In this document: positions 14,905 through 47,229 of the stretch, piece after piece
Layout: every line of letters starts with the position of its first letter
Numbering within the stretch: position 1 is the first letter of the stretch
From: Ruminococcus sp.
Lineage (GTDB): Bacteria; Bacillota; Clostridia; Oscillospirales; Acutalibacteraceae
Direction: 5' to 3'
NCBI GenBank assembly: GCA_017411835.1
Contig: JAFQPG010000007.1
Location: 20,264 to 84,263 of the forward strand
DNA: 64,000 nucleotides
Program-made: the position numbers and the translations under genes
The notes under the pieces: generated by a model
The model's database searches: none
What the model was told of the DNA's origin: nothing
What the model saw: only the letters and a program-made list of their open reading frames with translations

Positions 14905-15041
14905 AATATCCCTCCTATAAATTTTGAATATATCAGAGATTTTGTGATAATACAATATTAATTATATATCGATGTATTGATTATATGAAGTAGTGTTGAC
15001 AGAATTATGATAAAAAATTTAACAATTTTTGAACATAAAAT

Positions 15042-15065
15042 GAGCCTTCCGTGAACGGAAGGCTC
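15042..15065 (-). terminator. Terminator after the NSS transporter gene
   Basis: Perfect 10-bp stem GAGCCTTCCG/CGGAAGGCTC with a 4-nt loop, followed on the minus strand by ATTTTAT. Confidence 0.7.
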
Positions 15066-15070
15066 TGCTT

Positions 15071-16444: not shown

Positions 16445-16509
16445 AACATACCTCTTTTAAAAAATATTAACATAACTATACCAAAAACAAACCCAAACGG
16501 TCAAGCACT

Positions 16510-33020: not shown

Positions 33021-33051
33021 ATTTTTAAAAAAACAGAAACCTTACATAGAT

Positions 33052-33087
33052 AAAAGGCTGGCGGATTTTATTCCGTCAGCCTTTTAC
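33052..33087 (+). terminator. Terminator after nrdG
   Basis: Stem AAAAGGCTGGCGGA/TCCGTCAGCCTTTT with one G-T pair and a 6-nt loop. Confidence 0.75.
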
Positions 33088-33124
33088 GTTGTATTGCCTT
33101 TACAGATTATTTGTCAAACATTTC

Positions 33125-33152
33125 TTGTTTTATTTTTTGTGCGTGATATAAT
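33125..33152 (+). promoter_or_regulatory. Promoter of the dockerin serine hydrolase
   Basis: TTGTTT (33125-33130), 16 nt, consensus TATAAT (33147-33152), 22 nt before the ATG. Confidence 0.55.
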
Positions 33153-33174
33153 AGATTCAGAAAGGGTGGCTAAA

Positions 33175-34518
33175 ATGAAACTTAAAAAAATAATCAGTAT
33201 ATTTCTTTCACTTTTAATGTTCTTAACAGCATTTGTTATTCCCGTAAATGCTACCGGTAAATCCGACTTATCAACTGTTAATGCAATAAGTAAAGACGAT
33301 ATCGCGTCTGTTTCTTCATTGCAGGCATACCAAAATTATCTCGATAGAATAGTCACACTTAAAGACTTTTCGGGTGTTGCTTATGTAACCCAAAATGGTC
33401 GTGTTCTGTGCCAAAGTGCAAATGGTATGCAAAACACTGCCGACAGCAAAAATATGACTATCGACTCTCTGTTTCCTGTTGGTTCAGTGTCCAAGCAATT
33501 TTGTGCTACAGCAATTCTCTTGTTACAAGAGCAAGGAAAACTAAGCGTTGATGAAAAAATAACCAAGTATTTTCCTGAATATGAAATTGGAAAAGACATT
33601 ACTATAAAGCATCTGCTTAGTATGCGCTCCGGTATTCGTGACCATGTTAATCCTGATTACGCTTACACAGGTCACGAAATTCCATTTGAAGAATATACCG
33701 TAACTAAAACTGCAACCGCAAGCGAGAATAAGCAGATAATTACAGATTGGCTCTTCACACAACATTTGAAATTTTCTCCGGGCAACAATTTCTCCTACTC
33801 AAACTCGAACTTCTTGCTTTTATCAATGATTGTAGAGCAGGTATCAGGTATGAGCTACAGCGATTTTGTTAAGCAAAATATTTTTGAACCTCTGAAAATG
33901 ACAAATACAGGTTTTTGCGAGGAGCTTGTAGATTCTCCTGATTTAGCAGAGCATCATATGGATGGTGAACTTATCGAGCCTTATCACCGCGGTTTATCCC
34001 ACGGCGCAGGCGACATCGTTTCAAACGCAAAAGATATGGATAAATGGTTGACCTCTTTATCTGATTGCACACTCCTCAGCGAGAAAAGCTTTAAAGAAAT
34101 GACAACCGACTATTCCTTTGGTGATGGTTACGGCTTTGGTATTATGATTGATGAAAGTAATGGCTCTATTTATCACGCGGGCAACTTTGCATCATACGAA
34201 TCTATGGTAATCATTTTCCCTGCAGAAGACATTAACATTTTTGTTGTTACCAATGATGTAGAAAAAATGTATAAAAAAAATCTTCCTATGAATACTTTTG
34301 CGTTTGCAATCAGCAAAAAAGTCAACAGTGGCATAATGCTGGGTGATGTTGATGGCGACAATGAGGTTTCAATTTTAGATGCAACCGCTATCCAGCTGCA
34401 TATCGCACAACGTAAAACTCTGACAGACGAGCAGATTGAGCGTGGCGACACAGATGCAGACGGAGAGCTTTCAATTCTTGATGCATGTGCCATTCAGCTT
34501 TTTATCGCCAACAAGTAA
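33175..34518 (+). CDS. Secreted beta-lactamase-family serine hydrolase with C-terminal dockerin
   Basis: A 447-aa exported protein (signal peptide about 1-27). The body is a class C beta-lactamase/DD-peptidase fold: nucleophile Ser104 in 'PVGSVSKQF' (SxxK), the 'FSYSNSNFLL' YxN motif (Tyr208), and a HxG motif 'IYHAGNFASY'. The last ~58 residues are a type I dockerin with two repeats ('GDVDGDNEVSILDATAIQLH' and 'GDTDADGELSILDACAIQLF'), each a calcium-binding loop plus helix. It is probably a cell-surface or cellulosome-like attached esterase/peptidase; true beta-lactamase activity is not implied. ATG 33175 has AAGGGTGG upstream; a longer frame from 32986 covers the terminator and is rejected. 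Confidence 0.88.
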   Translation: MKLKKIISIFLSLLMFLTAFVIPVNATGKSDLSTVNAISKDDIASVSSLQAYQNYLDRIVTLKDFSGVAYVTQNGRVLCQSANGMQNTADSKNMTIDSLFPVGSVSKQFCATAILLLQEQGKLSVDEKITKYFPEYEIGKDITIKHLLSMRSGIRDHVNPDYAYTGHEIPFEEYTVTKTATASENKQIITDWLFTQHLKFSPGNNFSYSNSNFLLLSMIVEQVSGMSYSDFVKQNIFEPLKMTNTGFCEELVDSPDLAEHHMDGELIEPYHRGLSHGAGDIVSNAKDMDKWLTSLSDCTLLSEKSFKEMTTDYSFGDGYGFGIMIDESNGSIYHAGNFASYESMVIIFPAEDINIFVVTNDVEKMYKKNLPMNTFAFAISKKVNSGIMLGDVDGDNEVSILDATAIQLHIAQRKTLTDEQIERGDTDADGELSILDACAIQLFIANK

Positions 34519-34605: not shown

Positions 34606-35232
34606 TTATAATAATTCCTTAGCAACATCTTTTATTTCTTCAAAAGAATTAATTACCGCATCGTATTTTTCAACCTCGCCAAAGCCGTAGGACGCATATA
34701 CGAATGGAATTTTTGCATCTTTTGCGGCATCTTCGTCGCTTTTGGTATCGCCGACGTAAATCGCCTTATCTATGCCGTTTCTATTCATTACAAGTCTTAT
34801 GTTTTCTCCCTTAGAAAGCTTTGATGAGCCGGCGCATTCGTAGTCGTATAATATTTCTTTTAGAGAATAATGTGTTAAAAAAGCATTTAAATACCCGCTC
34901 TGACAATTTGACACAATCATAAGCTTGTATTTTTCTTTTAAAACATTAAGCATTTTCATAACACCGTCGTACATATTAGCTCCGTGCTCGATAAGATACG
35001 TCTGCTCTGCTTTAAAAATCTCGCCTATGAGCGACTCTGCTTCATCTTTTTCTATGCCTGTAAAAAAGTCGTCAACAAACTGCGCTTTATTTTTTCCCAT
35101 AAGAGAGCTCATAATTTCCTTTGTCATTTTAAGCTGTGGACATTTTTTTAAGAGCACCATATTCCATATATCAACCACCGTGTCGCTTGTATCCCACAGC
35201 GTGCCGTCTAAATCAAAAATTATTGCTTTCAT
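34606..35232 (-). CDS. HAD-family phosphatase (phosphoglycolate-phosphatase-like)
   Basis: A 208-aa haloacid-dehalogenase-superfamily hydrolase. Motif I 'IIFDLDGTLWDTSDT' is at residues 3-17, motif II 'LMIVSNCQSGYL' is near 105, and the Lys and acidic motifs III/IV are in 'AGSSKLSKGENIRL' and 'IYVGDTKSDEDAA'. The helical cap between motifs I and II is the C1 type seen in Gph/PgmB. The substrate is unknown, probably a small phosphorylated metabolite. ATG 35232 is chosen, with GGGTGATAAT before it. It stands alone and is transcribed away from the hydrogenase cluster. Confidence 0.85.
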   Translation of the reverse strand: MKAIIFDLDGTLWDTSDTVVDIWNMVLLKKCPQLKMTKEIMSSLMGKNKAQFVDDFFTGIEKDEAESLIGEIFKAEQTYLIEHGANMYDGVMKMLNVLKEKYKLMIVSNCQSGYLNAFLTHYSLKEILYDYECAGSSKLSKGENIRLVMNRNGIDKAIYVGDTKSDEDAAKDAKIPFVYASYGFGEVEKYDAVINSFEEIKDVAKELL

Positions 35233-35388
35233 ATTATCACCCAAATTATATTATACTACTGAAAGAACTATTTTTAAAGGGGTACTATATCCGTCATTTT
35301 TCACATAATAATGGGAGAATGTTTGTGTAGAATTAAGTCTTAGTTTGTGATAAAATTATGGTATGTATAAACTGAAAGGACGTTTTTT

Positions 35389-35736
35389 ATGATAGTTAAA
35401 GACATTATTGATATTTTACAGGGCGAGGTTATCTGCGAAGGCGACCTTGATCACGAAATAAAAACCGCCTGCGGCAGCGATATGATGAGCGACGTGCTGG
35501 CTTTTGTTAAAGACCAGTCTGTACTGCTCACAGGTCTTGTAAATCCACAGGTAGTAAGAACTGCTGAAATGATGGATATGGCGTGCATTGTATTTGTTAG
35601 AGGCAAAGAGCCTGACGAGTCTATCATTAAGCTTGCTCAGTCACGCGACATCACCCTTATCAAAACCCGTTTCAGGATGTTTACCGCTTGCGGTCTGCTG
35701 TATTCAAACGGTTTATCAGGAGGCTGTGACGTATGA
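35389..35736 (+). CDS. DRTGG-domain protein (first of two)
   Basis: A 115-aa stand-alone DRTGG-like domain (PF07085), a beta/alpha fold also seen next to CBS domains and in phosphotransacetylases. It begins 'MIVKDIIDILQGEVICEGDL', and contains 'DMMSDVLAFVKDQSVLLTGL' and 'ACIVFVRGKEPDESIIKLAQ'. The function of such stand-alone copies is not known. It is the first gene of a five-gene set leading to the hydrogenase operon and overlaps the next gene by 4 nt (ATGA). A paralogue lies at 37487-37816. AAAGGACG lies before the ATG. Confidence 0.8.
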   Translation: MIVKDIIDILQGEVICEGDLDHEIKTACGSDMMSDVLAFVKDQSVLLTGLVNPQVVRTAEMMDMACIVFVRGKEPDESIIKLAQSRDITLIKTRFRMFTACGLLYSNGLSGGCDV

Positions 35737-36158
35737 GTGCAATTCATTTAAGATACGAAGTACCCGGCGATGATTTCACCAGAGCAGGTGAAGCGAGCGG
35801 TGCTGTCAAAAAGCGTTTAAAGGCTTTGGGCTACAACCCCGATGCTATCAGACGAGTAGCGATTGCTATGTACGAAGCTGAAATTAATATGGTTATCCAC
35901 GCCGAGGGTGGCTACTGCGACGTTGACATCTACCCTGACAGAGTTGAAGTTCTGCTTGCTGATAAAGGTCCGGGTATTCCGGACGTCGAGAAGGCTATGC
36001 AGGCTGGCTTTTCTACCGCGCCTGACAACGTACGAAACTTAGGCTTTGGTGCGGGTATGGGTTTACCAAACATTAAAAAGTACACCGACGATATGCGTAT
36101 CGAAACTGAAATCGGCGTCGGTACAAACCTTTATTTAACCGTTAAAGTTAACAACTAA
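35733..36158 (+). CDS. Small GHKL ATPase (anti-sigma-factor/RsbW-like)
   Basis: A 141-aa protein made only of a HATPase_c domain, as in RsbW/SpoIIAB serine kinases. The N-box is 'RRVAIAMYEAEINMVIHAEG', G1 is 'VLLADKGPGIPDVEKAM', and G2 is 'NLGFGAGMGLPNIKKY'. No histidine-phosphoacceptor domain is present. RsbW-type proteins phosphorylate anti-anti-sigma factors, but no STAS protein or sigma factor is in the window, so the partner is unknown; the neighbouring DRTGG and H-cluster proteins are candidates. Co-translated with the DRTGG gene; 31 nt before the H-cluster gene. Confidence 0.85.
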   Translation: MSAIHLRYEVPGDDFTRAGEASGAVKKRLKALGYNPDAIRRVAIAMYEAEINMVIHAEGGYCDVDIYPDRVEVLLADKGPGIPDVEKAMQAGFSTAPDNVRNLGFGAGMGLPNIKKYTDDMRIETEIGVGTNLYLTVKVNN

Positions 36159-36189
36159 ATCTACTATATTTACATAAGAGGTAAGGAAA

Positions 36190-37464
36190 ATGCAAAAGTA
36201 TTTTCACTCTGTTGAGCTTGAAGCAGACAAGTGTTGTGGCTGTACTAACTGCCTAAAGCGTTGCCCTACTGAAGCTATCCGCGTTCACGACGGCAAGGCT
36301 ACTATCCTGTCTGAGCGTTGCATCGACTGTGGCGAGTGTATCCGCATCTGTCCACACCGCGCTAAAAAAGCTCACTCATCAACAATCGAAGAAATTGAAA
36401 ATTATAAAATCAAGGTTGCTATCCCTGCACCTGCACTTTTCGGTCAGTTCTCTAACCTTGACGATATAGACATCGTCTTAAACGGTCTTAGAGCTATCGG
36501 TTTTGACTTTATTTTTGAGGTATCCCGCGCCGCAGAGCTCGTATCAGAAGCGACAAGAAAGCTCATTAATGAAGGAAAACTCAACAAGCCGATTATCAGC
36601 TCGGCTTGTCCTGCTGTCGTACGACTTATTAAAATTCGTTTTCCTGATTTATGCGACAATGTTATGCCGATTTTGGCTCCGATGGAAATCGCGGCAAGGC
36701 TTGCAAGAAAAGAAGTTAAAAATCAAACAGGTTTGCCTGACGAAGAAATCGGCGTGTTCTTTATTACCCCTTGCGCCGCTAAGGTTACCGAGGTGACTTC
36801 TCCGACAACAGGCGAAAAATCTGCGTGCAACGGTGCGATCGCTATCTCTAAAATTTATCCTGCACTTACACAGGCGATGGAAAAGCTAAGCGTGCTTGAG
36901 CCTATCGCAAACTCAGGCTTAATCGGCGTTGGTTGGGCAACAAGCGGTGGAGAAAGTGCCGCTATGCTCGGCGATAAATATCTTGCAGCCGATGGCATAG
37001 AGAATGTTATTAGAGTGCTTGAAGGTCTTGAAGATGATAAAATCCGTGACGTTGATTTTATCGAGCTAAATGCTTGCTCGGGCGGTTGTGTCGGCGGTGT
37101 TTTAACCGTTGAAAACCCGTATGTTGCGCAGGCACGTATTCAGAATTTGCGTAAATATCTGCCTATTTCACTCAACCACTTAAAGGACGAAGAACTTGAA
37201 GAATTTATGTGGAAGGGCGAGCTTGAATTTAGTGGCGAGGGCTTCAGACTAGACGAAGATATATTCAAGGCTATGGATAAGATGGAGCAGATGGAGGAAA
37301 TCTGCGCAGGTCTTCCCGGTCTTGACTGTGGCTCGTGCGGTTCTCCTACCTGTCGTGCGATGGCGGAGGATATCGTAAAAGGTATCGCTAAAGAGGGCGA
37401 CTGTATCCACAAACTCAAAGAGTCTATCCAGCACATATATGACCATTTGAAAAACACTATCTAA
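36190..37464 (+). CDS. Divergent [FeFe]-hydrogenase-like iron-sulfur protein (putative H2 sensor)
   Basis: A 424-aa protein. Residues 1-60 hold two [4Fe-4S] ferredoxin motifs ('CCGCTNCLKRCP', 'CIDCGECIRICPH'). The middle is the hydrogenase large-subunit fold with altered H-cluster motifs: P1 is 'ISSACPAV' (Cys140) instead of TSCxPxW, P2 is 'TPCAAK' (Cys195), and P3 is 'NACSGGCVGG' (Cys296, Cys300). The four cluster cysteines survive, but catalytic surroundings do not. A C-terminal four-Cys Fe-S domain follows ('GLDCGSCGSPTC'). It is related to the sensory-type hydrogenases near hydABC in Ruminococcus, though no PAS domain is visible. AGAGGTAAGG precedes the ATG. Confidence 0.85.
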   Translation: MQKYFHSVELEADKCCGCTNCLKRCPTEAIRVHDGKATILSERCIDCGECIRICPHRAKKAHSSTIEEIENYKIKVAIPAPALFGQFSNLDDIDIVLNGLRAIGFDFIFEVSRAAELVSEATRKLINEGKLNKPIISSACPAVVRLIKIRFPDLCDNVMPILAPMEIAARLARKEVKNQTGLPDEEIGVFFITPCAAKVTEVTSPTTGEKSACNGAIAISKIYPALTQAMEKLSVLEPIANSGLIGVGWATSGGESAAMLGDKYLAADGIENVIRVLEGLEDDKIRDVDFIELNACSGGCVGGVLTVENPYVAQARIQNLRKYLPISLNHLKDEELEEFMWKGELEFSGEGFRLDEDIFKAMDKMEQMEEICAGLPGLDCGSCGSPTCRAMAEDIVKGIAKEGDCIHKLKESIQHIYDHLKNTI

Positions 37465-37486
37465 TACGTACTAATACGGAGTTATT

Positions 37487-37816
37487 ATGAATATAAAAGA
37501 AGCTGTTGAAAAACTTAATCTTAAAATTTTGGTAGAGGGCGATTTTGAGCGTGAAATCACCGATTGCTACATCGGCGATTTGCTAAGCTGGGTTATGGGC
37601 AGAGCACCGTCTGATTCAATCTGGCTTACGGTTATGGGTAATATCAACTCGATTGCTGTCGCGTCGCTTGCTGATGTTTCCTGCATTGTGCTTGTTGAAA
37701 ACGCTGCACTTGACGAGGACGCAAAAGCAAAAGCGGCTGCTCACGATATCACCATTTTGCAAAGTGAAGAAAACGCTTACCACCTATCAACTAAAATTTA
37801 TGAGCTTTTAAAATAA
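37487..37816 (+). CDS. DRTGG-domain protein (second)
   Basis: A 109-aa relative of the protein at 35389, recognisable by the same plan: 'NIKEAVEKLNLKILVEGDF', then 'GDLLSWVMGRAPSDSIWLTV', then 'VSCIVLVENAALDEDAKAKA'. Two divergent copies flank the H-cluster protein, which suggests a heteromeric or paired role. The ligand is unknown. ACGGAG lies 6 nt before the ATG. The PHP gene starts one base after the stop. Confidence 0.78.
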   Translation: MNIKEAVEKLNLKILVEGDFEREITDCYIGDLLSWVMGRAPSDSIWLTVMGNINSIAVASLADVSCIVLVENAALDEDAKAKAAAHDITILQSEENAYHLSTKIYELLK

Positions 37817-37817
37817 T

Positions 37818-38528
37818 ATGAAATACTACTACGATTTGCACCTACATTCGTGCCTTTCTCCTTGCGGTGATATGGATATGACCCCGAACAATATTGTCGG
37901 TATGGCAAAGCTTTTGGGACTTGATGTCATCGCACTCACCGACCACAACTCGACCTTAAACTGTCAGGCTGTTATTAAAGTCGGTAAAGAAAACGGGCTG
38001 TGTGTTATACCGGGTATGGAGCTGACAACAGCGGAAGAAATTCACGTTGTCTGCCTTTTCCCTACCTTAGAAAAAGCAAACGCTTTTAACGACTATGTAA
38101 AAGCACATCAGATGCAGTTTGAAAACCGCGCCGACATTTACGGTAGACAGGTAATAATGAACGAAAACGACGAGGAAATCGAGGAGGTCAAAAACCTGCT
38201 TATTTTAGCTACCGACATCAGCGTAATGAATGTCAAAGAGCTTGTGAGCGATTTTGACGGTGTGTGCTACCCTGCCCACATCAACCGCGACAGTATGTCC
38301 ATACTATCAGTACTCGGCGAAATCCCGCCCGAATGCGATTTTACAACTGCTGAAATTTCGTCGTCGGGCGATGTTGAGCAATTAAAAGCGATGCACCCGA
38401 TATTAAATAATATGCTTATTGTTAAAAACAGCGACGCACATTACCTTCAAAATATGAAGGATAAAGAAAACTATTTCGAGCTTGATGCTTTGTCTATTGA
38501 GTCGGTGCTCGCTTTACTGAAAAATTAA
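37818..38528 (+). CDS. PHP-domain metal-dependent phosphoesterase
   Basis: A 236-aa protein with the PHP catalytic motifs: 'YDLHLHSCLSPCGD' (metal His8/His10), 'ALTDHNSTLNC', 'GMELTTAEEIHVVCLF', 'CYPAHINRDSMS' and 'VKNSDAHYL'. PHP enzymes hydrolyse phosphoesters of nucleotides, RNA ends or histidinol phosphate. The target here is unknown. Its repeated co-location with DRTGG proteins and hydrogenases in Clostridia suggests a link to this regulatory set. It ends the first operon; a terminator follows within 12 nt. Confidence 0.85.
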   Translation: MKYYYDLHLHSCLSPCGDMDMTPNNIVGMAKLLGLDVIALTDHNSTLNCQAVIKVGKENGLCVIPGMELTTAEEIHVVCLFPTLEKANAFNDYVKAHQMQFENRADIYGRQVIMNENDEEIEEVKNLLILATDISVMNVKELVSDFDGVCYPAHINRDSMSILSVLGEIPPECDFTTAEISSSGDVEQLKAMHPILNNMLIVKNSDAHYLQNMKDKENYFELDALSIESVLALLKN

Positions 38529-38537
38529 AGCTTACTA

Positions 38538-38574
38538 CTAAACGACCGCTTGCGTGATGCAAACGGTCGTTTTT
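38538..38574 (+). terminator. Terminator between sensor set and hydrogenase operon
   Basis: Stem AAACGACCG/CGGTCGTTT, with an inner TTGC/GCAA pairing, followed by TTTTCTTTT. It separates the PHP gene from the promoter at 38722. Confidence 0.85.
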
Positions 38575-38665
38575 TCTTTTAAAGAAATTAATGTAGATTT
38601 TTTCGTCGCATTTTCTAATGCTTTTTCAGGTTAGCTTTTGCTAACTGTAATATGTGACAAAAAGT

Positions 38666-38683
38666 TTGATAAATTTTTGACAA
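38666..38683 (+). promoter_or_regulatory. Candidate Rex operator
   Basis: TTGATAAATTTTTGACAA fits the clostridial Rex consensus TTGTTAA-N4-TTAACAA at 12 of 14 fixed positions. It lies 39 nt upstream of the -35 box of the hydrogenase operon. Rex represses fermentation and hydrogenase genes according to NADH/NAD+. The region is AT-rich, so chance matches are possible. Confidence 0.45.
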
Positions 38684-38721
38684 TTTTCTTGTTTTTGGAG
38701 CAAGAAAAGCCTTTTTTTATA

Positions 38722-38750
38722 TAGACAAACGCGTGCTTTAGTGTTATAAT
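38722..38750 (+). promoter_or_regulatory. Promoter of the hydrogenase operon
   Basis: TAGACA (38722-38727), 17 nt, consensus TATAAT (38745-38750), 71 nt before hydC. A weak AT-rich hairpin (TTTTCTTG 38684-38691 with CAAGAAAA 38701-38708, then T7) lies just upstream. Confidence 0.75.
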
Positions 38751-38820
38751 TTATTTGTGTGCATATACGAATTTTTTGCTACAATTCAAGTACATAATTT
38801 TCTAATCAGGAGGAAAAACG

Positions 38821-39318
38821 ATGCAAAAGAAAATCAGTAGTATCCCGTTTGCGGGAACACCTGAGCAGGAAGCAGAGCTTAAAGCCGTCATCGCTAAACA
38901 CATCGATGATCCGGGCGCAGTAATGCCTGTTCTTCAGGAAGCACAGGAAATCTACGGTTACCTGCCAATTGAGGTTCAGACTATGGTAGCTGAAGGTTTA
39001 AACGTACCACTTGAAGAAGTTTACGGCGTTTCTACTTTCTACTCACAGTTTGCTCTCTCCCCAAAGGGCAAGTACAACATCTCTGTATGTATGGGTACAG
39101 CTTGTTATGTTAAGGGTTCCGGTGAAGTTTTAGACAAGCTTTCCGAGTGCCTTGGCATTGAGGCTGAAGAGTGTACTTTAGACGGTAAGTTTTCTCTTAC
39201 TGCTTGTCGTTGTATCGGTGCTTGCGGTCTCGCACCAGTAATCACAATCAACGATGATGTTTACGGCAGACTTACTGCAGACATGATTCCAGAGATTCTT
39301 GAAAAATACAAGGACTAA
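38821..39318 (+). CDS. hydC: NAD(P)H-linked [FeFe] hydrogenase subunit HydC (NuoE-like)
   Basis: A 165-aa thioredoxin-like [2Fe-2S] subunit. The ligands are in 'CMGTACYVKGS' and 'LTACRCIGACGLAPV'. 'HIDDPGAVMPVLQEAQEIYG' is the usual NuoE N-terminal helix region. With HydB and HydA it would form the cytoplasmic electron-bifurcating hydrogenase that oxidises NADH and reduced ferredoxin together to make H2. AGGAGG precedes the ATG. It is the first gene of the operon that starts at the promoter 38722-38750. Confidence 0.93.
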   Translation: MQKKISSIPFAGTPEQEAELKAVIAKHIDDPGAVMPVLQEAQEIYGYLPIEVQTMVAEGLNVPLEEVYGVSTFYSQFALSPKGKYNISVCMGTACYVKGSGEVLDKLSECLGIEAEECTLDGKFSLTACRCIGACGLAPVITINDDVYGRLTADMIPEILEKYKD

Positions 39319-39321
39319 TTT

Positions 39322-39879
39322 ATGAGAGAATTATCTCTTAATGTAATGGACGTTGTTCAAAACTCTGTATCCGCCAATGCGTCGCTCATCACCATCACCG
39401 TAAAGGAAAGTGATAAAGACGATTTCCTCGACATCTATATCGAAGACAACGGCAAGGGTATGAGCGAAGAACAGGTACAAAACGTCATTGACCCTTTCTT
39501 CACCACCCGCACAACCAGAAAGGTTGGCTTGGGAGTTCCGCTGTTTAAGATGGCTGCACAGCAAACCGGCGGCAGCTTTGATATTAAATCTCAGCTTGGT
39601 GTCGGCACAACACTTTCTGCACATTTTATAAAATCAAGTGTAGATATGACACCGCTTGGAGATATCAACTCCACCGTTAAAATTCTTATCCAGTGCAACC
39701 CTACTCTTGACTTTGTGTTTTCACATTCTACCGACTTAGGCGAGTTTGTGCTGGACACAAGAGAGTTAAGACAGATTTTAGGTGAAGATGTTCCGCTTGA
39801 CACTTTAGACGTATTAGAGTGGATAGACGGATTTTTAAAAGAGCAATCAAACATCATATACGGAGGTGCAAAAATATGA
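39322..39879 (+). CDS. GHKL ATPase within the hydrogenase operon
   Basis: A 185-aa protein with a histidine-kinase-type ATPase domain and no dimerisation/phosphoacceptor helix. The N-box is 'VMDVVQNSVSANASLITI', G1 is 'YIEDNGKGMSEEQ', the F-box is 'DPFFTTRTTRK', and G2 is 'GLGVPLFKMAAQQTGG'. A C-terminal region of about 70 residues ('VDMTPLGDINSTVKILIQCN') is not part of the ATPase. It sits between hydC and the ferredoxin, with a 3-nt gap before it and a 4-nt overlap after it, so it is made together with the enzyme. Its substrate or partner is unknown. Confidence 0.85.
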   Translation: MRELSLNVMDVVQNSVSANASLITITVKESDKDDFLDIYIEDNGKGMSEEQVQNVIDPFFTTRTTRKVGLGVPLFKMAAQQTGGSFDIKSQLGVGTTLSAHFIKSSVDMTPLGDINSTVKILIQCNPTLDFVFSHSTDLGEFVLDTRELRQILGEDVPLDTLDVLEWIDGFLKEQSNIIYGGAKI

Positions 39880-40244
39880 AATCTTTAGCAGAATTACAGG
39901 CTATCAGAGATAAGGCTAAGCTCGAGCTCAATATGAGAAAAGAAAACCCTAACGCAATCAGAGTTTTAGTTGGTATGGCTACATGCGGTATCGCTGCTGG
40001 TGCAAGACCTGTACTTAACGCTTTTACAGAAGAAGTTGCTAAGCGCAACTTACAGGATGTTACTATCACACAGACAGGTTGCATCGGCATCTGTCAGTTC
40101 GAGCCTGTTGTTGAAATCGAAATTCCGGGCGAGGACAAGGTTACTTACGTAAAAATGACACCTGAAAAGGTAGCTAAGGTTGTTAACGACCACATCGTTA
40201 ACAGAAACGTAGTTACTGAGTACACAATCGGTGCCTACAAATAA
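39876..40244 (+). CDS. Thioredoxin-like [2Fe-2S] ferredoxin
   Basis: A 122-aa ferredoxin-like protein of the thioredoxin fold. The four likely cluster cysteines lie in 'GMATCGIAAGARPVLNAF' (one) and 'ITQTGCIGICQFEPVVEI' (two), so one ligand fewer than the classical four is visible; the cluster may be shared or absent. A coiled N-terminal helix (1-35) precedes it. Such 'HydTrx' proteins are often found between nuoE- and nuoF-like hydrogenase genes. ATG 39876 has GGAGGTG upstream and overlaps the ATPase stop (ATGA). Confidence 0.82.
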   Translation: MKSLAELQAIRDKAKLELNMRKENPNAIRVLVGMATCGIAAGARPVLNAFTEEVAKRNLQDVTITQTGCIGICQFEPVVEIEIPGEDKVTYVKMTPEKVAKVVNDHIVNRNVVTEYTIGAYK

Positions 40245-40258
40245 AAGGAGGACAAATA

Positions 40259-42067
40259 ATGTATCGTTCTAATGTGCTTGTTTGCGGCGGTACCGGCTGT
40301 ACCTCCTCAGACAGTTTAAAAATTGTTGATAAGCTCAAAGAAGAAATCGCAGCTCGCGGTTTGGAAAACGAAGTTAACGTTATCACAACAGGTTGCTTCG
40401 GTCTTTGTGCTTTAGGTCCAATCGTAGTTATCTACCCGGAGGGTAGCTTCTACTCAATGGTTAAAATCGACGATATCCCTGAGATTGTTGAAGAGCATCT
40501 CTTAAAGGGTAGAATCGTTACAAGACTTCTTTATCAGGAGACTGTTGAAGAAGACACTATCAAATCACTTAACAAAACTGCTTTCTATGCTAAGCAGCAG
40601 CGTATCGCTCTTCGTAACTGCGGTGTTATCGACCCTGAAAAGATTGACGAATACATCGCTATGGACGGTTACGCAGCTCTTGGTAAAGTATTGACAGAAA
40701 TGACCCCAACAGAAGTTATCGAGACTATTCTCGCTTCAGGTCTTCGCGGTCGTGGCGGTGCAGGCTTCCCTACAGGTTTAAAATGGAAGTTCGCTGCTGC
40801 TAATGATGCTGACCAGAAGTACGTTTGCTGTAACGCTGACGAAGGTGACCCTGGTGCATTTATGGACCGTTCTATCTTAGAGGGTGACCCTCACGCTCTG
40901 CTCGAAGCTATGGCTATCGCAGGTTATGCTATCGGCGCTACAAAGGGTTACGTTTACGTTCGTGCTGAGTACCCTATCGCTGTTAATCGTCTCCAGATTG
41001 CTATCGATCAGGCTCACGAGTACGGTTTACTTGGCGACAACATCTTCGGCACAGACTTCTGCTTTGACATTCAGCTTAGACTTGGTGCAGGTGCTTTCGT
41101 ATGTGGTGAGGAAACTTCCCTTATGACATCTATCGAAGGTAAGCGTGGCGAGCCTCGTCCTCGTCCTCCGTTCCCTGCTGTTAAGGGTCTTTATAAAAAG
41201 CCAACTATCTTAAACAACGTTGAAACATACGCTAACATTCCTCGTATTATTTTAAAGGGTGCTGACTGGTTCAACACAATCGGTACTGAAAAGAGCAAGG
41301 GTACTAAGGTATTCGCTCTTGGTGGTAAGATTGAACACACAGGTCTTGTAGAAGTTCCTATGGGTACAACACTTAGAGAAATCGTTGAGGAAATCGGTGG
41401 CGGTATTCCAAACGGCAAGAAGTTCAAAGCTGCTCAGACAGGTGGACCTTCAGGCGGTTGTATCCCACCACAGCATTTAGATATTCCTATCGACTACGAC
41501 AACCTTCTTGCTATCGGCTCTATGATGGGTTCCGGTGGTCTTATCGTAATGGACGAGACAACCTGTATGGTTGATATCGCTAAGTTCTTCTTAGAGTTCA
41601 CTGTTGACGAGTCCTGCGGTAAATGTACACCTTGCCGTATCGGTACAAAGAGACTTTTAGAGATGCTCGATAAAATCACTAAGGGTCAGGGTACATTAGA
41701 GATGCTTGACGAGATGGAAGATCTTTGTAACTACATCAAGGCAAACTCTCTTTGCGGTCTTGGTCAGACAGCTCCAAACCCTGTTTTATCAACACTCAAC
41801 TACTTCAGAGATGAGTACATCCAGCACGTTGTTGATAAGAAGTGCGTAGCAGGCGTATGTAAAGACCTGCTCGAATTTAGTATCATCAAAGACAAGTGCT
41901 TTGGTTGCTCAATGTGTGCTAGACAGTGTCCTGCAGGCGCTATCACTGTTACTGACTACACAGCTCCTGGTAAGAAAAAGCCAGCTTACGAAATCGACAC
42001 AGCTAAGTGCGTTAAGTGCGGTGCTTGTTTACCTACATGTAAGTTCGGCGCTATCATTAAAGGCTAA
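40259..42067 (+). CDS. hydB: NADH-binding hydrogenase subunit HydB (NuoF-like)
   Basis: A 602-aa flavoprotein subunit. The N-terminal thioredoxin-like [2Fe-2S] domain has 'VCGGTGCTSSDSL' and 'TGCFGLCALGP'. The NuoF core has the NADH/FMN loops 'GLRGRGGAGFPTGLKW' near residue 160 and 'CNADEGDPGAFMDRSILEGD' near 205, and a [4Fe-4S] site 'ESCGKCTPCRIGTKR'. Two C-terminal ferredoxin motifs follow ('CFGCSMCARQCP', 'CVKCGACLPTCK'). The extra C-terminal ferredoxin domain is the form found in bifurcating HydABC enzymes. AAAAGGAGG precedes the ATG. Confidence 0.95.
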   Translation: MYRSNVLVCGGTGCTSSDSLKIVDKLKEEIAARGLENEVNVITTGCFGLCALGPIVVIYPEGSFYSMVKIDDIPEIVEEHLLKGRIVTRLLYQETVEEDTIKSLNKTAFYAKQQRIALRNCGVIDPEKIDEYIAMDGYAALGKVLTEMTPTEVIETILASGLRGRGGAGFPTGLKWKFAAANDADQKYVCCNADEGDPGAFMDRSILEGDPHALLEAMAIAGYAIGATKGYVYVRAEYPIAVNRLQIAIDQAHEYGLLGDNIFGTDFCFDIQLRLGAGAFVCGEETSLMTSIEGKRGEPRPRPPFPAVKGLYKKPTILNNVETYANIPRIILKGADWFNTIGTEKSKGTKVFALGGKIEHTGLVEVPMGTTLREIVEEIGGGIPNGKKFKAAQTGGPSGGCIPPQHLDIPIDYDNLLAIGSMMGSGGLIVMDETTCMVDIAKFFLEFTVDESCGKCTPCRIGTKRLLEMLDKITKGQGTLEMLDEMEDLCNYIKANSLCGLGQTAPNPVLSTLNYFRDEYIQHVVDKKCVAGVCKDLLEFSIIKDKCFGCSMCARQCPAGAITVTDYTAPGKKKPAYEIDTAKCVKCGACLPTCKFGAIIKG

Positions 42068-42084
42068 GAGAAAGGAGAATTAAT

Positions 42085-43824
42085 ATGGAAATGCTTAATA
42101 TTAAAATCAACGGTATGCCTTTCTCTGTTGAGAAAAACACCACTATCCTTGAAGCATGCCACCAGTTCGGTATCAAGATTCCTACTCTGTGCTACCTCAA
42201 GGACATTAACGAAATCGGCGCATGCCGTATGTGTCTTTGTGAAGTAAAGGGCGCTCGTTCACTCGTTGCTGCTTGTGTATATCCTATCGACAGAGAGGGT
42301 ACAGAAATCTTCACAAACACTCCACAGATTCAGAAATACAGAAAGACAACACTCGAGCTTATCCTTTCTAACCACGACAAGAAATGTCTCTCTTGCCCAC
42401 GTTCAAACAACTGTGAGCTCCAGGCTCTTTGTAAAGAATACGGCGTAGACGAAACAAAATTCGAGGGTGAAGAAACTAAGTACGATATCGACGCTACTAC
42501 ACTTCACCTTGTTAGAAATAACAACAAGTGTATTCTTTGCCGCAGATGCTCTGCTGCTTGTAAAAACCAGTACGTTGGCGTTATCGGTGCTAACAACCGT
42601 GGTTTTGATACAGAAATCGGTTGTGCATTCAACCAGACACTCGACGCTGTTTCTTGCGTAGCTTGCGGTCAGTGTACAGCAGTTTGTCCTACAGGCGCAC
42701 TCATTGAGCGTGACGACACCGCAGAAGTTTTCGCAGCTATCGCTGACGAGACAAAGACTGTTATCGTTCACACAGCTCCATCTATCAGAGCAACACTCGG
42801 TGAATGCTTCGATATGCCTATCGGCACAAACGTTACAGGTAAAATGGTTGCAGCTTTACGTCGCCTTGGCTTTGACAAGGTATTTGACACAAACTTTGCT
42901 GCTGACCTTACAATTATGGAAGAAGGCACAGAGTTCTTAGACAGAGTTAAGAACGGCGGTACACTTCCAATGATTACATCTTGCTCACCGGGTTGGATCA
43001 AGTTCTGCGAGCACTACTATCCAGAGCTCATTCCTAACCTCTCAACTTGTAAATCTCCACAGCAGATGCAGGGTGCTATGATTAAGTCATACTACGCTGA
43101 AAAGATGGGCATTGACCCTAAAGATATGGTTGTAGTAGCTGTTATGCCTTGCGTTGCTAAGAAGTTTGAGATTAAGCGTGACGATCAGGGCCACGACGGC
43201 ATCGCTGATAACGATTACGTTATCTCTACACGTGAGCTTGCAAAGATGATTAAAACTGCTGGTATCCAGTTCACAGAGCTTGCTGACGAAGATTTCGACC
43301 CTATTATGGGTATCGGTACCGGTGCTGGTACAATCTTCGGTACAACAGGCGGTGTTATGGAAGCAGCGCTTAGAACAGTTGCTGACATACTCACAGGCGA
43401 AGATTTAGAGTCTATCGACTACACAGAAGTTCGTGGTATGGAAGACATCAAGGAAGCTACCTACAACGTTGCAGGTATGGAAGTTAAGGTTGCTGTAACA
43501 TCAGGCCTTTCAAATGCTGCTAAGCTTCTTGATAAGGTAAAGAGCGGCGAAGCTGACTACCACTTCATCGAGGTTATGTGCTGTCCTGGCGGTTGTATCA
43601 ACGGCGGCGGTCAGCCAATCGTTGATGGTCATACACGCAACTTTGTTGACGTTAAGGGCTTACGTGCTGCTGCTCTGTATGACGATGATAAGAATCTCCC
43701 ATACAGAAAGTCACACAAAAACCCTGAGATTACAGCTATCTATGCTGATTATCTCAAAGAGCCTGGTTCACACAAGGCTCACGAGCTCTTACATACATCT
43801 TATGTAAAGAGAGAAAAGTATTGA
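42085..43824 (+). CDS. hydA: [FeFe] hydrogenase catalytic subunit HydA
   Basis: A 579-aa NADH-linked [FeFe] hydrogenase subunit. Clusters in order: [2Fe-2S] Cys36/47/50/64, His-ligated [4Fe-4S] His97/Cys101/104/110, and two [4Fe-4S] sites (Cys149-159 and Cys191-201). The H-cluster domain has P1 'TSCSPGW' (298-304), P2 'MPCVAKK' (354-360) and P3 'EVMCCPGGCINGGGQP' (496-511). A C-terminal small-subunit-like tail ends at 'REKY'. It makes or oxidises H2 with HydB and HydC. Maturases HydEFG are not in the window. AAAGGAG lies before the ATG; a terminator follows. Confidence 0.97.
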   Translation: MEMLNIKINGMPFSVEKNTTILEACHQFGIKIPTLCYLKDINEIGACRMCLCEVKGARSLVAACVYPIDREGTEIFTNTPQIQKYRKTTLELILSNHDKKCLSCPRSNNCELQALCKEYGVDETKFEGEETKYDIDATTLHLVRNNNKCILCRRCSAACKNQYVGVIGANNRGFDTEIGCAFNQTLDAVSCVACGQCTAVCPTGALIERDDTAEVFAAIADETKTVIVHTAPSIRATLGECFDMPIGTNVTGKMVAALRRLGFDKVFDTNFAADLTIMEEGTEFLDRVKNGGTLPMITSCSPGWIKFCEHYYPELIPNLSTCKSPQQMQGAMIKSYYAEKMGIDPKDMVVVAVMPCVAKKFEIKRDDQGHDGIADNDYVISTRELAKMIKTAGIQFTELADEDFDPIMGIGTGAGTIFGTTGGVMEAALRTVADILTGEDLESIDYTEVRGMEDIKEATYNVAGMEVKVAVTSGLSNAAKLLDKVKSGEADYHFIEVMCCPGGCINGGGQPIVDGHTRNFVDVKGLRAAALYDDDKNLPYRKSHKNPEITAIYADYLKEPGSHKAHELLHTSYVKREKY

Positions 43825-43847
43825 TTGTAGCAAATCTATATAAAGTT

Positions 43848-43880
43848 AGGGCGTCGATTACTCGACGCCCTTTTGTTTTC
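43848..43880 (+). terminator. Terminator after hydA
   Basis: Stem AGGGCGTCG/CGACGCCCT with a 6-nt loop, followed by TTTGTTTT. It also lies at the end of the small leftward gene at 43879. Confidence 0.85.
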
Positions 43881-44055
43881 AGTTATTCATTTTGTTCTTG
43901 CCGCGATATTCCCATACGCTGTGCGAGTTTTCTTCATTTTTATTTACTTTAACCTCGTTTTCAACAACATCTATGATAACGCCTTTATCGATTTTTTGAT
44001 CTTTTGCCGGCATTTCTTCAGGAAATACAAACGGCTTTAAAATCTGTTCGTCCAT
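43879..44055 (-). CDS. Small acidic protein of unknown function (58 aa)
   Basis: A complete frame of 58 codons with a textbook ribosome site (AAGGAGTG, 6 nt before ATG 44055). The protein is soluble, highly charged and has no membrane segment. It begins 'MDEQILKPFVFPEEMPAKDQ' and ends with 'SHSVWEYRGKNKMNN'. I do not recognise the family. Codon use looks like real coding sequence, and the gene ends at the hydA terminator, facing the hydrogenase operon. Confidence 0.6.
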   Translation of the reverse strand: MDEQILKPFVFPEEMPAKDQKIDKGVIIDVVENEVKVNKNEENSHSVWEYRGKNKMNN

Positions 44056-44143
44056 CTATATCACTCCTTTTAGCACTATCATTATGCGTTAAAAGGTGTG
44101 TTTTTATTTATGGAAGATTTTTGTTTTTTATTCTATATTAGAA

Positions 44144-45091
44144 TTATCCGATAGGATGTTCGTCGTAATAAAACTCTATACTCTTAGACACAATGTCTCC
44201 GTGAACATCTTTGATATATATATTCATTTTACAGTCAATCGTCCCTGGATAGCCATAACTATATTCCGGCACAATTTTTGGAAGTTCAAAGTAATTTTGC
44301 TCTGAATAATCCTGCACAGTTAGTTCTACCTCAGATGTATCCCATGGATCATATATAGCACCATCAAGACGTCTACTAAATTCAAACTTATACTGGTATG
44401 GCGCAGTACCGCCTATGCCCTCTGCGTACATTTTCATACCATCTTGGTTGTACGCATAAGTTCCCCAGTATTTGCCTGTTGAATAAATGGTCTTAAACTT
44501 CAGTTCTTCATTTTCCTCTTTGTCAATTACAACATAATCATATAAATTTCTTTCTCCCGTTGCAAACATAGCAACAGTCTCCATTCTGACATCATACATA
44601 CCCGACTTATCAAACGTGTATGTAAGGCTGTTGTCAGTTTCGCTTGTTGCTACGCATTCATCGTTAACATAAAGCTTATAGGAAAGTATAGGTGAGCCGG
44701 CACGCGAGTTCATAGTAAACGTAACAGGTTCCCCTACTCTTGCCACACCTGAATAATAGTCAGCGTAAAAATCGTCTACCATCATATCGTAGTTATACCA
44801 GTCGCCACCATAATATTTATCAATCTCAGCAATTCTGCGCTGAATTTTAGTTGCATCGGCTACGGTGAGAAAACCATCTTTGTCGGTATCTCCCAAATAT
44901 CTTATATAAACAGTTTCTTCTTCGAGTTCGGCGAGTACACGCTGAATAATAGTAGCATCAACGATATTTACTTTACCATCGTCGTTGACATCTCCGATAT
45001 ACGCAGCAGGCGGTGTAGTAGCACCGATACTTACTGTGCATACAGACGCAAGAATAACCAAAGCAATAATCATACATAAAAGTTTTTTCAT
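44144..45091 (-). CDS. Secreted dockerin protein with N-terminal dockerin
   Basis: A 315-aa exported protein (signal peptide about 1-25). A type I dockerin comes first (residues about 33-97), with two calcium-loop repeats: 'GDVNDDGKVNIVDATIIQRV' and 'GDTDKDGFLTVADATKIQRR'. The rest (about 110-315) is beta-rich, with an Ig/PKD-like pattern including 'SYKLYVNDECVATSETDNSL' and 'YTFDKSGMYDVRMETVAMF', similar to Y_Y_Y/PKD-type modules. No catalytic domain is seen. Dockerins normally sit at the C-terminus, so this order is less common. Promoter at 45128-45156. Confidence 0.8.
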   Translation of the reverse strand: MKKLLCMIIALVILASVCTVSIGATTPPAAYIGDVNDDGKVNIVDATIIQRVLAELEEETVYIRYLGDTDKDGFLTVADATKIQRRIAEIDKYYGGDWYNYDMMVDDFYADYYSGVARVGEPVTFTMNSRAGSPILSYKLYVNDECVATSETDNSLTYTFDKSGMYDVRMETVAMFATGERNLYDYVVIDKEENEELKFKTIYSTGKYWGTYAYNQDGMKMYAEGIGGTAPYQYKFEFSRRLDGAIYDPWDTSEVELTVQDYSEQNYFELPKIVPEYSYGYPGTIDCKMNIYIKDVHGDIVSKSIEFYYDEHPIG

Positions 45092-45696: not shown

Positions 45697-45727
45697 AAAC
45701 CGCCACATAAACTGTGGCGGTTTTTAT
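45697..45727 (+). terminator. Terminator after the 45201 gene
   Basis: Stem AAACCGCCAC/GTGGCGGTTT with a 7-nt loop, followed by TTATT. It can also stop leftward transcripts (A-rich before it). Confidence 0.8.
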
Positions 45728-47229
45728 TATGTCCATTCTATGTCGGTAACACTTTTAACTTGGTCTTTTTCAAGCTTCGTCAAGAGAACAAACCTTGGTG
45801 TTGTCGGACTTATTCCTGAGCCCGGGTCAACAATTTCTGTAATTTTTACGTACATCGTTTTATTCATAACTGCAACATCATATAGATTGCCGTCAGCCTC
45901 ATCGCAATCAAGGGTATATAAAGCAGCAAGCAGATAATTATTCTCAAAAAACTCTTCGTCATATACATCGTTTTCTACTTTGAAAATTTCGTCGTACTGC
46001 TCTTTTGTCTTGATTACAGCTAAGAAATCTTCGTTATAATAATCTGCATTTACGTAATTTTCAATATCATATATACCGCTTTTTGAATAAACATCTTCAA
46101 ATGCTATGCCACAGTAGTCAGGAGGCATTTGTGGTCTGCCCTGTGGATAATAGCTTTTATCACTATAGCTTACAAAAACCAAGTCCTCGTTGTAAACAGT
46201 TGGGCTAGCTAAATTTGCAAGCTTTCTCTGGATAGAAGTTGCGTCTAAAACGTCTACGCTTTTATCGCCGTTAAAATCTGCAACCGCAAAAATATCAATC
46301 TGCTCAAGTCCTGCAACAATACGCTGAATTTTTGAAGCATCAATAACTGTTACTTCCTTATCTGCGTCTAAATCGCCGACGAGAATACCGTATTCACCGG
46401 AGCAAAAAACTTCTCTTAAGCCTTCATACTCATCAAAGTTGACTTTGGTAATCGCTATAAATTCGTCCTTTTGAGCATCATAAATACAGTACGGAGTCTC
46501 AAACGGATCGTAATAATAAACAGTACTAAAAACAACATTTTCAACTATAGTCGTGAAAACCGTAGGAATCTCAGTAGGCTCCACTAATCTTCCAGAAAAA
46601 GCTTCAATTAAAGCCCAATCAAGCTGAGTATTAAGCTCATCTGAATAAACATTGTATAGTTCTCTAAAAGTTTCCGGCATGCTATATTCTTCTTCAAAAC
46701 GCTCTCTTACTGTCTTTATTGGTACAGGCTCAATCGGTTTATATGGCGGTTCAGTCGGCTCTACAACAGGTCCTACATAATAATAGTCGATAGATGCAAT
46801 CTCTTCCATCTGCGCAATTTCGTACACCTTTGACTTAGTAATAGTTATGATAAAAGAAGGAGTAAGCGTGCTAAAAAAGATTATATCCTCATCAGGTACG
46901 CCGATTTTATCCAAAACGGCTTGATTTTCAGCCTTGTGGAACTCGCTCATCAAGCGGGTGCGCGCTCTTCTGTAAGCATCTATTTCCTCATTAGTATCGA
47001 GCGACTCGCCTAGTAAACCCGTCTCAACTAAAGCCTGATGCTCAATCTCATCCACGTCAATAGCGCTGTATATCCATACCCACACGCTTAGCTTATCATC
47101 ATCGTTTAAAGCATCAAGCTGTTCTTGCAGAGTATCGTTAATAAGATTTGAGCTCTGTGCAAAAACAGGTGTCACAACTAAACTCAACAGCAAAACTGTC
47201 ATAAGCATTATACTAACTATTTTTTTCAT
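45727..47229 (-). CDS. Secreted protein with protease-propeptide-like domain and internal dockerin
   Basis: A 500-aa exported protein (signal peptide about 1-26). Residues ~30-150 have the look of a subtilase propeptide/I9 inhibitor: 'DDDKLSVWVWIYSAIDVDEI' and 'TPSFIITITKSKVYEIAQME', the latter close to the 'vltltkeqveeIaxxpeV' pattern. A Pro-rich linker follows. A two-repeat dockerin lies near 295-355 ('GDLDADKEVTVIDASKIQRI', 'ADFNGDKSVDVLDATSIQRK'). The C-terminal ~130 residues are unrecognised. There is no peptidase domain. It may bind or inhibit a protease on a scaffold; this is a guess. AGGAGGG precedes ATG 47229. Confidence 0.75.
   Translation of the reverse strand: MKKIVSIMLMTVLLLSLVVTPVFAQSSNLINDTLQEQLDALNDDDKLSVWVWIYSAIDVDEIEHQALVETGLLGESLDTNEEIDAYRRARTRLMSEFHKAENQAVLDKIGVPDEDIIFFSTLTPSFIITITKSKVYEIAQMEEIASIDYYYVGPVVEPTEPPYKPIEPVPIKTVRERFEEEYSMPETFRELYNVYSDELNTQLDWALIEAFSGRLVEPTEIPTVFTTIVENVVFSTVYYYDPFETPYCIYDAQKDEFIAITKVNFDEYEGLREVFCSGEYGILVGDLDADKEVTVIDASKIQRIVAGLEQIDIFAVADFNGDKSVDVLDATSIQRKLANLASPTVYNEDLVFVSYSDKSYYPQGRPQMPPDYCGIAFEDVYSKSGIYDIENYVNADYYNEDFLAVIKTKEQYDEIFKVENDVYDEEFFENNYLLAALYTLDCDEADGNLYDVAVMNKTMYVKITEIVDPGSGISPTTPRFVLLTKLEKDQVKSVTDIEWT

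Follow-up and report, generated by a model that had tools for sequence, protein, structure and literature searches.

What does a putative sensory hydrogenase report to, and through which proteins? The question is raised by a locus on contig JAFQPG010000007.1 of Ruminococcus sp., of which a 64,000-nucleotide (nt) stretch was analysed (the window, whose positions are used throughout). The source genome comprises 1.72 Mb in 20 contigs and is ~99% complete. Beside an operon for the bifurcating hydrogenase HydABC lie five genes encoding a DRTGG protein (DRTGG-1, D1), a HATPase (HATPase-1, h1), an H-cluster protein (M), a second DRTGG protein (DRTGG-2, D2) and a PHP enzyme (P); a second HATPase (HATPase-2, h2) is encoded inside the operon. 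According to the 2026 study of TamHydS, the proteins with which group D [FeFe] hydrogenases interact have yet to be identified (PMC13104023); this and the other cited papers enter here as excerpts, and our statements about them apply to those excerpts. The original prediction, made from the sequence of this stretch, held that M senses H2 or redox state and controls both ATPases, which may phosphorylate the DRTGG proteins or the hydrogenase, with P as the reversing phosphatase.

Conservation of the five upstream genes as a unit reaches well past close relatives. We tentatively read this unit as a stressosome-like serine-kinase relay that would take in H2 or ferredoxin redox state and in which DRTGG proteins would replace STAS proteins. 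With its kinase activity, substrate and output all predicted from sequence, the reading is possible, falling slightly short of evenly balanced.

Gene Order and Spread

Of the 398 phylum genomes, 163 gave a match to M at E ≤ 1e-55, and these represent 102 of 271 genera. At the level of the order, 87 of 117 genomes matched at E ≤ 1e-20, a count that mixes in other hydrogenase groups. Three samples of loci were compared: 60 M loci spread over the families of the phylum, 20 M loci from genomes without HydG, and the best 80 of 585 matches of a DRTGG-kinase query in named genomes, a sample biased to good matches of that pair. The samples overlap, with L012 and L082, L062 and L068, and L100 and L152 identical in M and h1.

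In the 60-locus sample, h1 was directly upstream of M in 56 loci; D-h1-M was present in 48, M-D in 55, M-D-P in 49, and all five genes in order in 44. One locus scored as lacking h1 (L022) has it upstream, an in-frame stop having interrupted M and left an M fragment between. The corresponding counts for the HydG-less genomes were 20/20 for h1 and for D-h1-M, and 19/20 for M-D and for the five genes in order. Among the named loci, M directly followed h1 in 75/80; D came after M in 53 of these 75 and D-P in 51, and in 12 of the 75 a contig end was no more than 1.5 kb away. The five named loci without M were L084 (at a contig end), L101, L114, L128 and L130. Named M loci spanned approximately eight phyla (Bacillota, Bacteroidota, Spirochaetota, Synergistota, Cloacimonadota, Desulfobacterota-type, Aminicenantes and Coatesbacteria), and most of the genomes behind them are metagenome-assembled genomes (MAGs). 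Because the module is conserved across phyla, the co-occurrence supposed in the original prediction is not confined to close relatives.

Neighbouring genes were also found fused, in four ways. DRTGG-kinase fusions occurred in nine distinct loci (L019, L032, L054, L062 = L068, L069, L119, L132, L138 and L147; those of L054 and L138, with 94% identity, are entered separately). The kinase and M shared one 601-aa frame in L055, and M and D2 one 563-aa frame in L030, single-locus fusions that one frameshift could mimic. P and h2 formed one frame in L043, L051, L061, L148 and L153, all five in family f44.

It is very improbable that this is a conserved operon of functionally unlinked parts. Such an explanation would accommodate the M genes of L045, L063 and L065, which have no h1 adjoining and whose genomes hold another M locus, and 15 named loci, none of them near a contig end, that have no D-P after M. 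It would leave unexplained an order retained over approximately eight phyla and the four kinds of fusion between neighbours.

Two further observations concern M loci of unusual composition. L045 and L065 carry a second M paralogue in the order M-DRTGG-Fd-HydC-HydB-HydA with no kinase adjoining, and their genomes also hold the h1-M-D-P loci L044 and L064. In L030, the M-DRTGG fusion adjoins a gene (14588-17501, - strand) whose FeS-PAS-HisKA-HATPase product, truncated where the fetched sequence ends, partially matches the hydrogenase domain; next to it lies a sigma-54 response regulator. This single locus thus pairs a sensor of the histidine kinase type with a group D module.

The Kinase-Like ATPase and the DRTGG Proteins

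The 141-aa h1 (35733-36158, + strand; HATPase_c_2, 39.1 bits) is a GHKL ATPase of the SpoIIAB/RsbT type and a putative serine kinase. The nearest solved structures by sequence were SpoIIAB (1til, 1th8) and RsbW (6m36). Residues E48, N52, H56, D77, G79, G81, G106, G108 and G110 were each present in 55/55 sequences, and these invariant residues align with the N-box of SpoIIAB, including its catalytic-base glutamate (E48), and with the G-boxes. On this basis h1 would belong to the SpoIIAB/RsbW/RsbT superfamily of GHKL serine kinases, and kinase activity is predicted. Identity to the SpoIIAB of the same genome was 28% over 101 aa, and h1 scored 51.9 bits against the SpoIIAB equivalog model TIGR01925, below its cut-off of 135. 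The genome's own SpoIIAB sits in a spoIIA operon with SpoIIAA and SigF (locus L191). A STAS search of the genome (E ≤ 0.01) returned a single protein, the SpoIIAA of that operon. As that sole STAS match stands beside SpoIIAB and SigF, h1 is left with no spare or obvious STAS partner.

Residue conservation showed the nucleotide motifs of both HATPases to be intact, and neither protein matched HisKA, in line with the original prediction that they lack a phosphoacceptor domain. Among the ten genes of the locus and six flanking open reading frames (ORFs), there was no match to HisKA, a receiver domain, STAS or a sigma family, and the response regulator, STAS protein and sigma factor that had been reported missing nearby were therefore not found. 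The two HATPases, grouped together in the original prediction, differ in kind: h1 lies in the conserved module, and h2 is of the HydE type and belongs to the enzyme operon.

D1, a candidate phospho-target or ligand-binding partner (35389-35736, + strand; 115 aa), matched PF07085 at 36.6 bits (cut-off 25.2); D2 (37487-37816, + strand; 109 aa) scored 23.6 bits, slightly below that cut-off. The two are paralogues by sequence, with 27% identity over 105 aa. In D1, D31 was conserved in 43/44 sequences, and S34 and T48 in 44/44; in D2, each of the three was present in 49/49. D31 and S34 were invariant and T48 present in ≥90% of a 55-row DRTGG alignment, and a D-x-x-S motif of this kind was seen in 274 of the 275 DRTGG ORFs matched in the fetched loci.

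DRTGG domains from 60 genomes of the class (22 matches at E ≤ 1e-10) served as a control. Five were small standalone proteins, all adjoining other genes of the module, and 17 lay within large proteins, which we take to be of the CBS-pyrophosphatase or Pta type. The D31/S34/T48 set was present in 12/12 module DRTGGs and 5/5 standalone ones. The domains of the large proteins are of the same family as D1 and D2, sometimes with CBS, but differ in that the full set was absent from all 13 (of 17) that could be aligned to the profile: position 31 was Ala in 13/13 and Asp in 0/13, position 34 was Ser in 1/13, and position 48 was Thr in 0/13. Since Ser34 is invariant in the module DRTGGs and scarce in the large proteins, it is the first candidate phosphosite of D1 and D2. 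A module-specific invariant Ser/Thr is what phosphorylation of the DRTGG proteins by a neighbouring kinase needs. For the hydrogenase itself, the other substrate that had been suggested, these sequence data gave no pointer to phosphorylation.

P (37818-38528, + strand; 236 aa; PF02811, 38.4 bits) is a PHP-domain phosphoesterase in which H8, H10, D42, H43, E68, H76 and H154 were conserved in 50/50 sequences, D206 in 48/50 and H208 in 49/50. Its presence, and that of the DRTGG domains, could also be consistent with a small-molecule relay, in which the DRTGG proteins (and CBS in some h1) would bind adenine nucleotides or dinucleotide alarmones, P would hydrolyse the ligand, and h1 would bind ATP without being a kinase. 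A CBS pair is fused to h1 in L058, with L020 and L021 similar by eye; several papers that name DRTGG concern, in their excerpts, nucleotide-regulated CBS pyrophosphatases or Ap4A; and PHP relatives act on nucleic acids. We nevertheless consider such a relay unlikely, given that the invariant residues of the module DRTGGs differ from the 13 other domains compared, and that the glutamate of h1 aligned with the N-box Glu of SpoIIAB is kept without exception (55/55).

The H-Cluster Protein

M (36190-37464, + strand; 424 aa; Fe_hyd_lg_C, PF02906, 112.7 bits) is a putative H2/redox sensor comprising an N-terminal Fer4 pair (two 4Fe-4S motifs), an H-cluster domain and a C-terminal FeS domain (PF04060). 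The H-cluster cysteines C140, C195, C296 and C300 are all present, and the four were kept in 155, 156, 156 and 156 of 156 M rows, which include three identical pairs. A C-terminal Cx2Cx4Cx16C motif is formed by C380, C383, C388 and C405. The positions of the prototype C299 (the proton-relay cysteine), M353 and M497 are occupied by A139, T193 and N294. At the C299 position, the 156 rows held A in 80, S in 31, F in 23, Y in 8, T in 5, N in 3, H in 2, V in 2, I in 1 and a gap in 1, with no Cys. The domain search of M returned no PAS match, which separates it from group C HydS of the PAS type. These motif features without PAS are marks of the putative sensory hydrogenases of group D, or M2e (PMC8163306, PMC3561251; the Cx2Cx4Cx16C cluster motif in PMC8163306), and M can be assigned to this group by its motifs.

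A sensory role has already been proposed in print for group D/M2e [FeFe] hydrogenases (PMC3561251, PMC8163306, PMC13104023), with putative sensing published for TamHydS (PMC13104023). The idea of M as an H2 or redox sensor thus agrees with its group D marks and is not new. The genes of such sensory hydrogenases usually precede those of trimeric bifurcating enzymes, often with a histidine/serine kinase gene between (PMC3561251).

The evidence on whether M always senses H2 points both ways. HydG (E ≤ 1e-100) was found in 122 of the 163 M-bearing phylum genomes; among all 398, 41 had M only, 103 had HydG only and 132 had neither. In one of the 41 (G358), HydG is split over two contigs. The absence of HydG was considered as a sign that M has no H-cluster and was rejected: a HydG missed by this model does not equate to a missing H-cluster, because 32/41 such genomes still carry group A HydA over the cut-off. 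HydF was over the cut-off in only 4/41, and a group A HydA without HydG or HydF over the cut-off may reflect either a blind spot of the hidden Markov models (HMMs) or another maturation route.

The PF02906 search covered 18 genomes chosen mostly for missing HydG, 14 of which hold M in the fetched locus. In these 14 genomes without HydG (E ≤ 1e-40), M was the sole Fe_hyd_lg_C protein in six, and further ones were present in eight. Lys198 of M presumably corresponds, in numbering and role, to K358 of CpI. In four genomes of one family (G142, G272, G320 and G342), none of HydG, HydF and group A HydA exceeded the cut-off, and in all four Lys198 of M is replaced by Gln. Nine of the 41 genomes had no HydA over the cut-off; of the eight M proteins seen in them, four had Gln198 and four Lys (L046, L154, L155 and L156). 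In the named loci whose M has lost Lys198, 5/7 genomes have HydG. The loss of Lys198 as a general marker of a lost [2Fe] site was dropped on account of these last two counts.

M may generally be a ferredoxin or [4Fe-4S] redox sensor rather than an H2 sensor, with the [2Fe] site of the H-cluster optional. The six genomes in which M is the only Fe_hyd_lg_C protein and the four with Gln198 would fit this explanation, as would the C-terminal cluster of TamHydS, which responds to strong photoreduction and not to H2 (PMC13104023). However, TamHydS also binds a [2Fe] site supplied in synthetic form and is reactive towards H2 (PMC13104023), group A HydA persists in most of the HydG-less genomes (32/41), half of the M proteins from HydA-less genomes keep Lys198 (4/8), its loss elsewhere does not track HydG (5/7 have it), and further Fe_hyd_lg_C proteins occur in 8/14. 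Many of the genomes in the HydG comparison are also MAGs of unknown completeness. Overall, we regard a purely redox-sensing M as doubtful.

The Adjoining Operon and Other Neighbours

All ten genes were recovered by domain matches on the + strand at the positions originally given, in two transcription units: 35389-38528 (D1-h1-M-D2-P) and 38821-43824 (HydC-h2-Fd-HydB-HydA). The intergenic gaps of 1-31 nt within either unit and the ATGA overlap between the end of D1 and the start of h1 were likewise confirmed. So was the terminator between P and HydC. An intrinsic terminator (38540-38580, + strand; RNA fold -17.3 kcal/mol, z -4.7) closes the five-gene module, and a promoter-like site of the hyd operon follows at 38722-38750 (+ strand; TAGACA-17-TATAAT, 11/12 matches, TG before the second hexamer). 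The latter is weak on its own, because 24 such sites were found in 35200-44200 against 15.7 expected.

The second unit encodes a NuoE-like HydC (38821-39318; PF01257, 176.9 bits), h2 (39322-39879; 185 aa; HATPase_c, 55.9 bits), a thioredoxin-like [2Fe-2S] ferredoxin (39873-40244; PF01257, 26.4 bits) overlapping h2 by 7 nt, HydB (40259-42067; Complex1_51K, 154.2 bits, with NADH_4Fe-4S and Fer4) and the group A6 catalytic subunit HydA (42085-43824; NCBIfam NF040763, 890.4 bits, cut-off 765), all on the + strand. The NF040763 score over the cut-off, together with the HydB and HydC domains, identifies an electron-bifurcating HydABC of group A6. A terminator (43848-43871, + strand; fold z -6.5) ends the operon. 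No Rfam family reached its gathering score in 35000-44200.

A site resembling a Rex operator lies at 38666-38683 (+ strand; 2 mismatches to the Rex consensus). In the window alone, such sites were not significant (12 matches with ≤3 mismatches against 11.2 expected). Across the intergenic stretches between PHP and HydC in loci L008-L147, with the window excluded, Rex-like sites with ≤2 mismatches to the same consensus were present in 7/46, compared to 0.3% in shuffled copies that preserved base content only. A Rex-type gene is present in the genome of the window. The sites in 7/46 stretches and the one in the window suggest that Rex controls the transcription of hydABC, with the module acting post-transcriptionally.

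The motif residues of h2 were conserved (D10 in 45/48, N14 in 47/48, D42 in 47/48 and G71 in 48/48 sequences). It is a HydE-type HATPase_c of hyd operons, distinct in kind from h1. The HydE of A. woodii, a histidine-kinase-like ATPase inside the hyd operon (PMC3315566), corresponds to h2, and bears nothing on h1 or on the DRTGG and PHP genes. In C. aceticum, a histidine-kinase-like ATP-binding protein is encoded directly upstream of the rnf operon (PMC7911925), and the h2-Rnf order of L078 agrees with this arrangement.

The enzymes near the module varied. Within the fetched stretches, which differ in length and in some cases stop at contig ends, HydB was present in 50/60, 12/20 and 43/80 loci of the three samples, Rnf C+D in 12/60, 1/20 and 2/80, a formate-dehydrogenase-type protein in 5/60, 3/20 and 2/80, and Rex in 12/60, 5/20 and 5/80. 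HydABC, when present, was located downstream, upstream or on the opposite strand. Because both the neighbours and the position of HydABC vary, we take the module to track the ferredoxin/NAD branch point and not HydA by itself.

In L057, L059, L060, L067 and L162, the formate-dehydrogenase-type protein takes the place of HydA, beside NuoE/NuoF-like subunits, and this enzyme is likely a bifurcating formate dehydrogenase. In the first four of these loci the protein is split into two frames of ~352-359 and 528-537 aa, a pattern that a selenocysteine TGA would give.

The input of the module may vary as well. Two Nitrospirota loci (L101 and L114) have D-h1-D-P without M, and just upstream encode a CxxCH-containing histidine kinase and a receiver protein (domains by eye). 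Their genomes (G536 and G545) had no Fe_hyd_lg_C match at E ≤ 1e-10, yet HydG was over the cut-off. As these two related loci have a histidine kinase and receiver where M is missing, they hint that the kinase, DRTGG and PHP part is a unit able to take another input. Separately, the Nitrospirota MAG locus L101 encodes at 13598-14470 a HydC-type protein with a receiver-like start (by eye).

These neighbourhoods bear on whether the set is instead one of assembly factors or chaperones, with both GHKL ATPases and the DRTGG proteins maturing or assembling HydABC-type complexes or Fe-S clusters and M acting as a scaffold. In A. woodii, HydE did not belong to the active enzyme and is suggested to have a possible role in assembly or in signalling (PMC3315566), and h2 lies inside the enzyme operon. 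A scaffold would not account for the H-cluster Cys ligands and sensor-type residue swaps of M, nor for SpoIIAB and RsbW as the nearest solved structures of h1; 52/160 loci (three present twice and some cut by contig ends) had no HydB, Rnf or formate dehydrogenase in the stretch, and in Nitrospirota the module is accompanied by a histidine kinase and receiver. We therefore consider an assembly role improbable.

Dockerin type I domains were found on three proteins flanking the locus (32986-34518, 44144-45091 and 45727-47280), one of them a beta-lactamase-type serine hydrolase, which points to a cellulosome-like system.

Discussion

Under the serine-kinase relay that we tentatively prefer, the five genes at 35389-38528 would act as one signalling module with its own transcription unit beside the hydABC operon. 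M would read H2, low-potential (ferredoxin) redox state or both through its H-cluster and [4Fe-4S] clusters, and would gate the neighbouring h1, as gene adjacency and the one kinase-M2e fusion suggest. The kinase would then phosphorylate both DRTGG proteins, most likely on Ser34 and less likely on Thr48. P would reset the state, either by dephosphorylating phosphoserine or by clearing a nucleotide ligand from the DRTGG proteins; this is the weakest step. The phosphorylated or free DRTGG proteins or kinase would alter the activity or assembly of the adjoining ferredoxin:NAD-linked enzymes, HydABC here and in other genomes Rnf or formate dehydrogenase, perhaps by way of the HydE-like h2, which is fused to PHP in one family. 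Transcription of hydABC would probably be set separately by Rex.

Several findings weigh against this reading. The invariant Ser/Thr of the DRTGG proteins could bind a ligand rather than be phosphorylated. Small molecules or nucleic acids are common substrates of PHP enzymes, and an exoribonuclease and endonuclease Q are among the solved structures closest to P in sequence. In 8/60, 8/20 and 36/80 loci the fetched stretch contained no HydB, Rnf or formate dehydrogenase as a candidate target. D-P was absent after M in 24/75 named loci, of which a contig end explains only 9, and the h1-M and M-D2 fusions come from one locus each.

A broader interpretation is that the module represents an undescribed kind of serine-kinase signalling. 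A SpoIIAB/RsbT-type kinase would act on DRTGG rather than STAS proteins; the input would be exchangeable (mostly a group D H-cluster protein, and a histidine kinase with receiver in Nitrospirota); the output would be the ferredoxin/NAD branch point (HydABC, Rnf or formate dehydrogenase); and some sensors would work without the [2Fe] H-cluster. Taken together, these parts are rather unlikely all to hold.

Should the relay hold, it would account for real-time control of H2, formate and ferredoxin traffic in fermenting bacteria, would bear on rumen and gut H2 and methane and on fuel-producing Clostridia, and would add a non-STAS substrate class to the partner-switching kinases. For the partners of group D hydrogenases, the locus and its relatives offer a prediction: the adjacent ATPase of serine-kinase type, a pair of DRTGG proteins and a PHP enzyme, joined in places by natural fusions and including one candidate phosphosite. 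The module thereby turns the question of how such sensors pass on a signal into a testable one.

Comparison with Known Systems

Group D proteins upstream of bifurcating HydABC, and their possible H2 sensing, were already known. No description of the five-gene set was found in the open-licence literature searched, and subscription papers could hold one; within that literature, the whole module, the fusions, the module-specific DRTGG residues and the possible exchange of sensor are new. TamHydS and other M2e proteins share with M two N-terminal [4Fe-4S] motifs, the H-cluster cysteines, Cx2Cx4Cx16C, the absence of PAS, and the replacement of C299 and both methionines, and the M2e genes of the known group are similarly located upstream of bifurcating HydABC. 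For Cthe_0335, Athe_1292, Csac_1857, Cphy_3798 and Teth39_1463, the M2e gene lies five locus numbers from the closest member of the Fd/HydB/HydA triplet (PMC3561251, Table 6), the spacing seen in the window. Cthe_0339, within Cthe_0338-0342, is annotated as a histidine kinase (PMC3990059). The excerpts of the published M2e accounts name a histidine/serine kinase or histidine kinase-like ATPase and no DRTGG or PHP protein, and an AraC regulator is named for TamHydS, unlike the module of the window. Group C HydS (R. albus, PMC6776011; T. maritima, PMC10055695; Hydrogenedentota C3, PMC11406978) also features an H-cluster protein as putative sensor, but with a PAS or histidine kinase domain or a separate phosphatase subunit.

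SpoIIAB, RsbW and RsbT are of the same ATPase family as h1, with its N-box Glu/Asn/His and G-boxes. Partner-switching systems differ from the module in using a STAS substrate and a sigma factor, in whose place DRTGG proteins stand here, and no STAS-domain substrate of the stressosome kind is encoded at the locus. The module also has a PHP enzyme where partner switching has a PP2C-type phosphatase, of which RsbX is one. By analogy, the module may nonetheless resemble the stressosome in overall composition, which likewise combines a sensor, a kinase (RsbT), two scaffold substrates (RsbR/RsbS) and a phosphatase, RsbX (PMC9237128).

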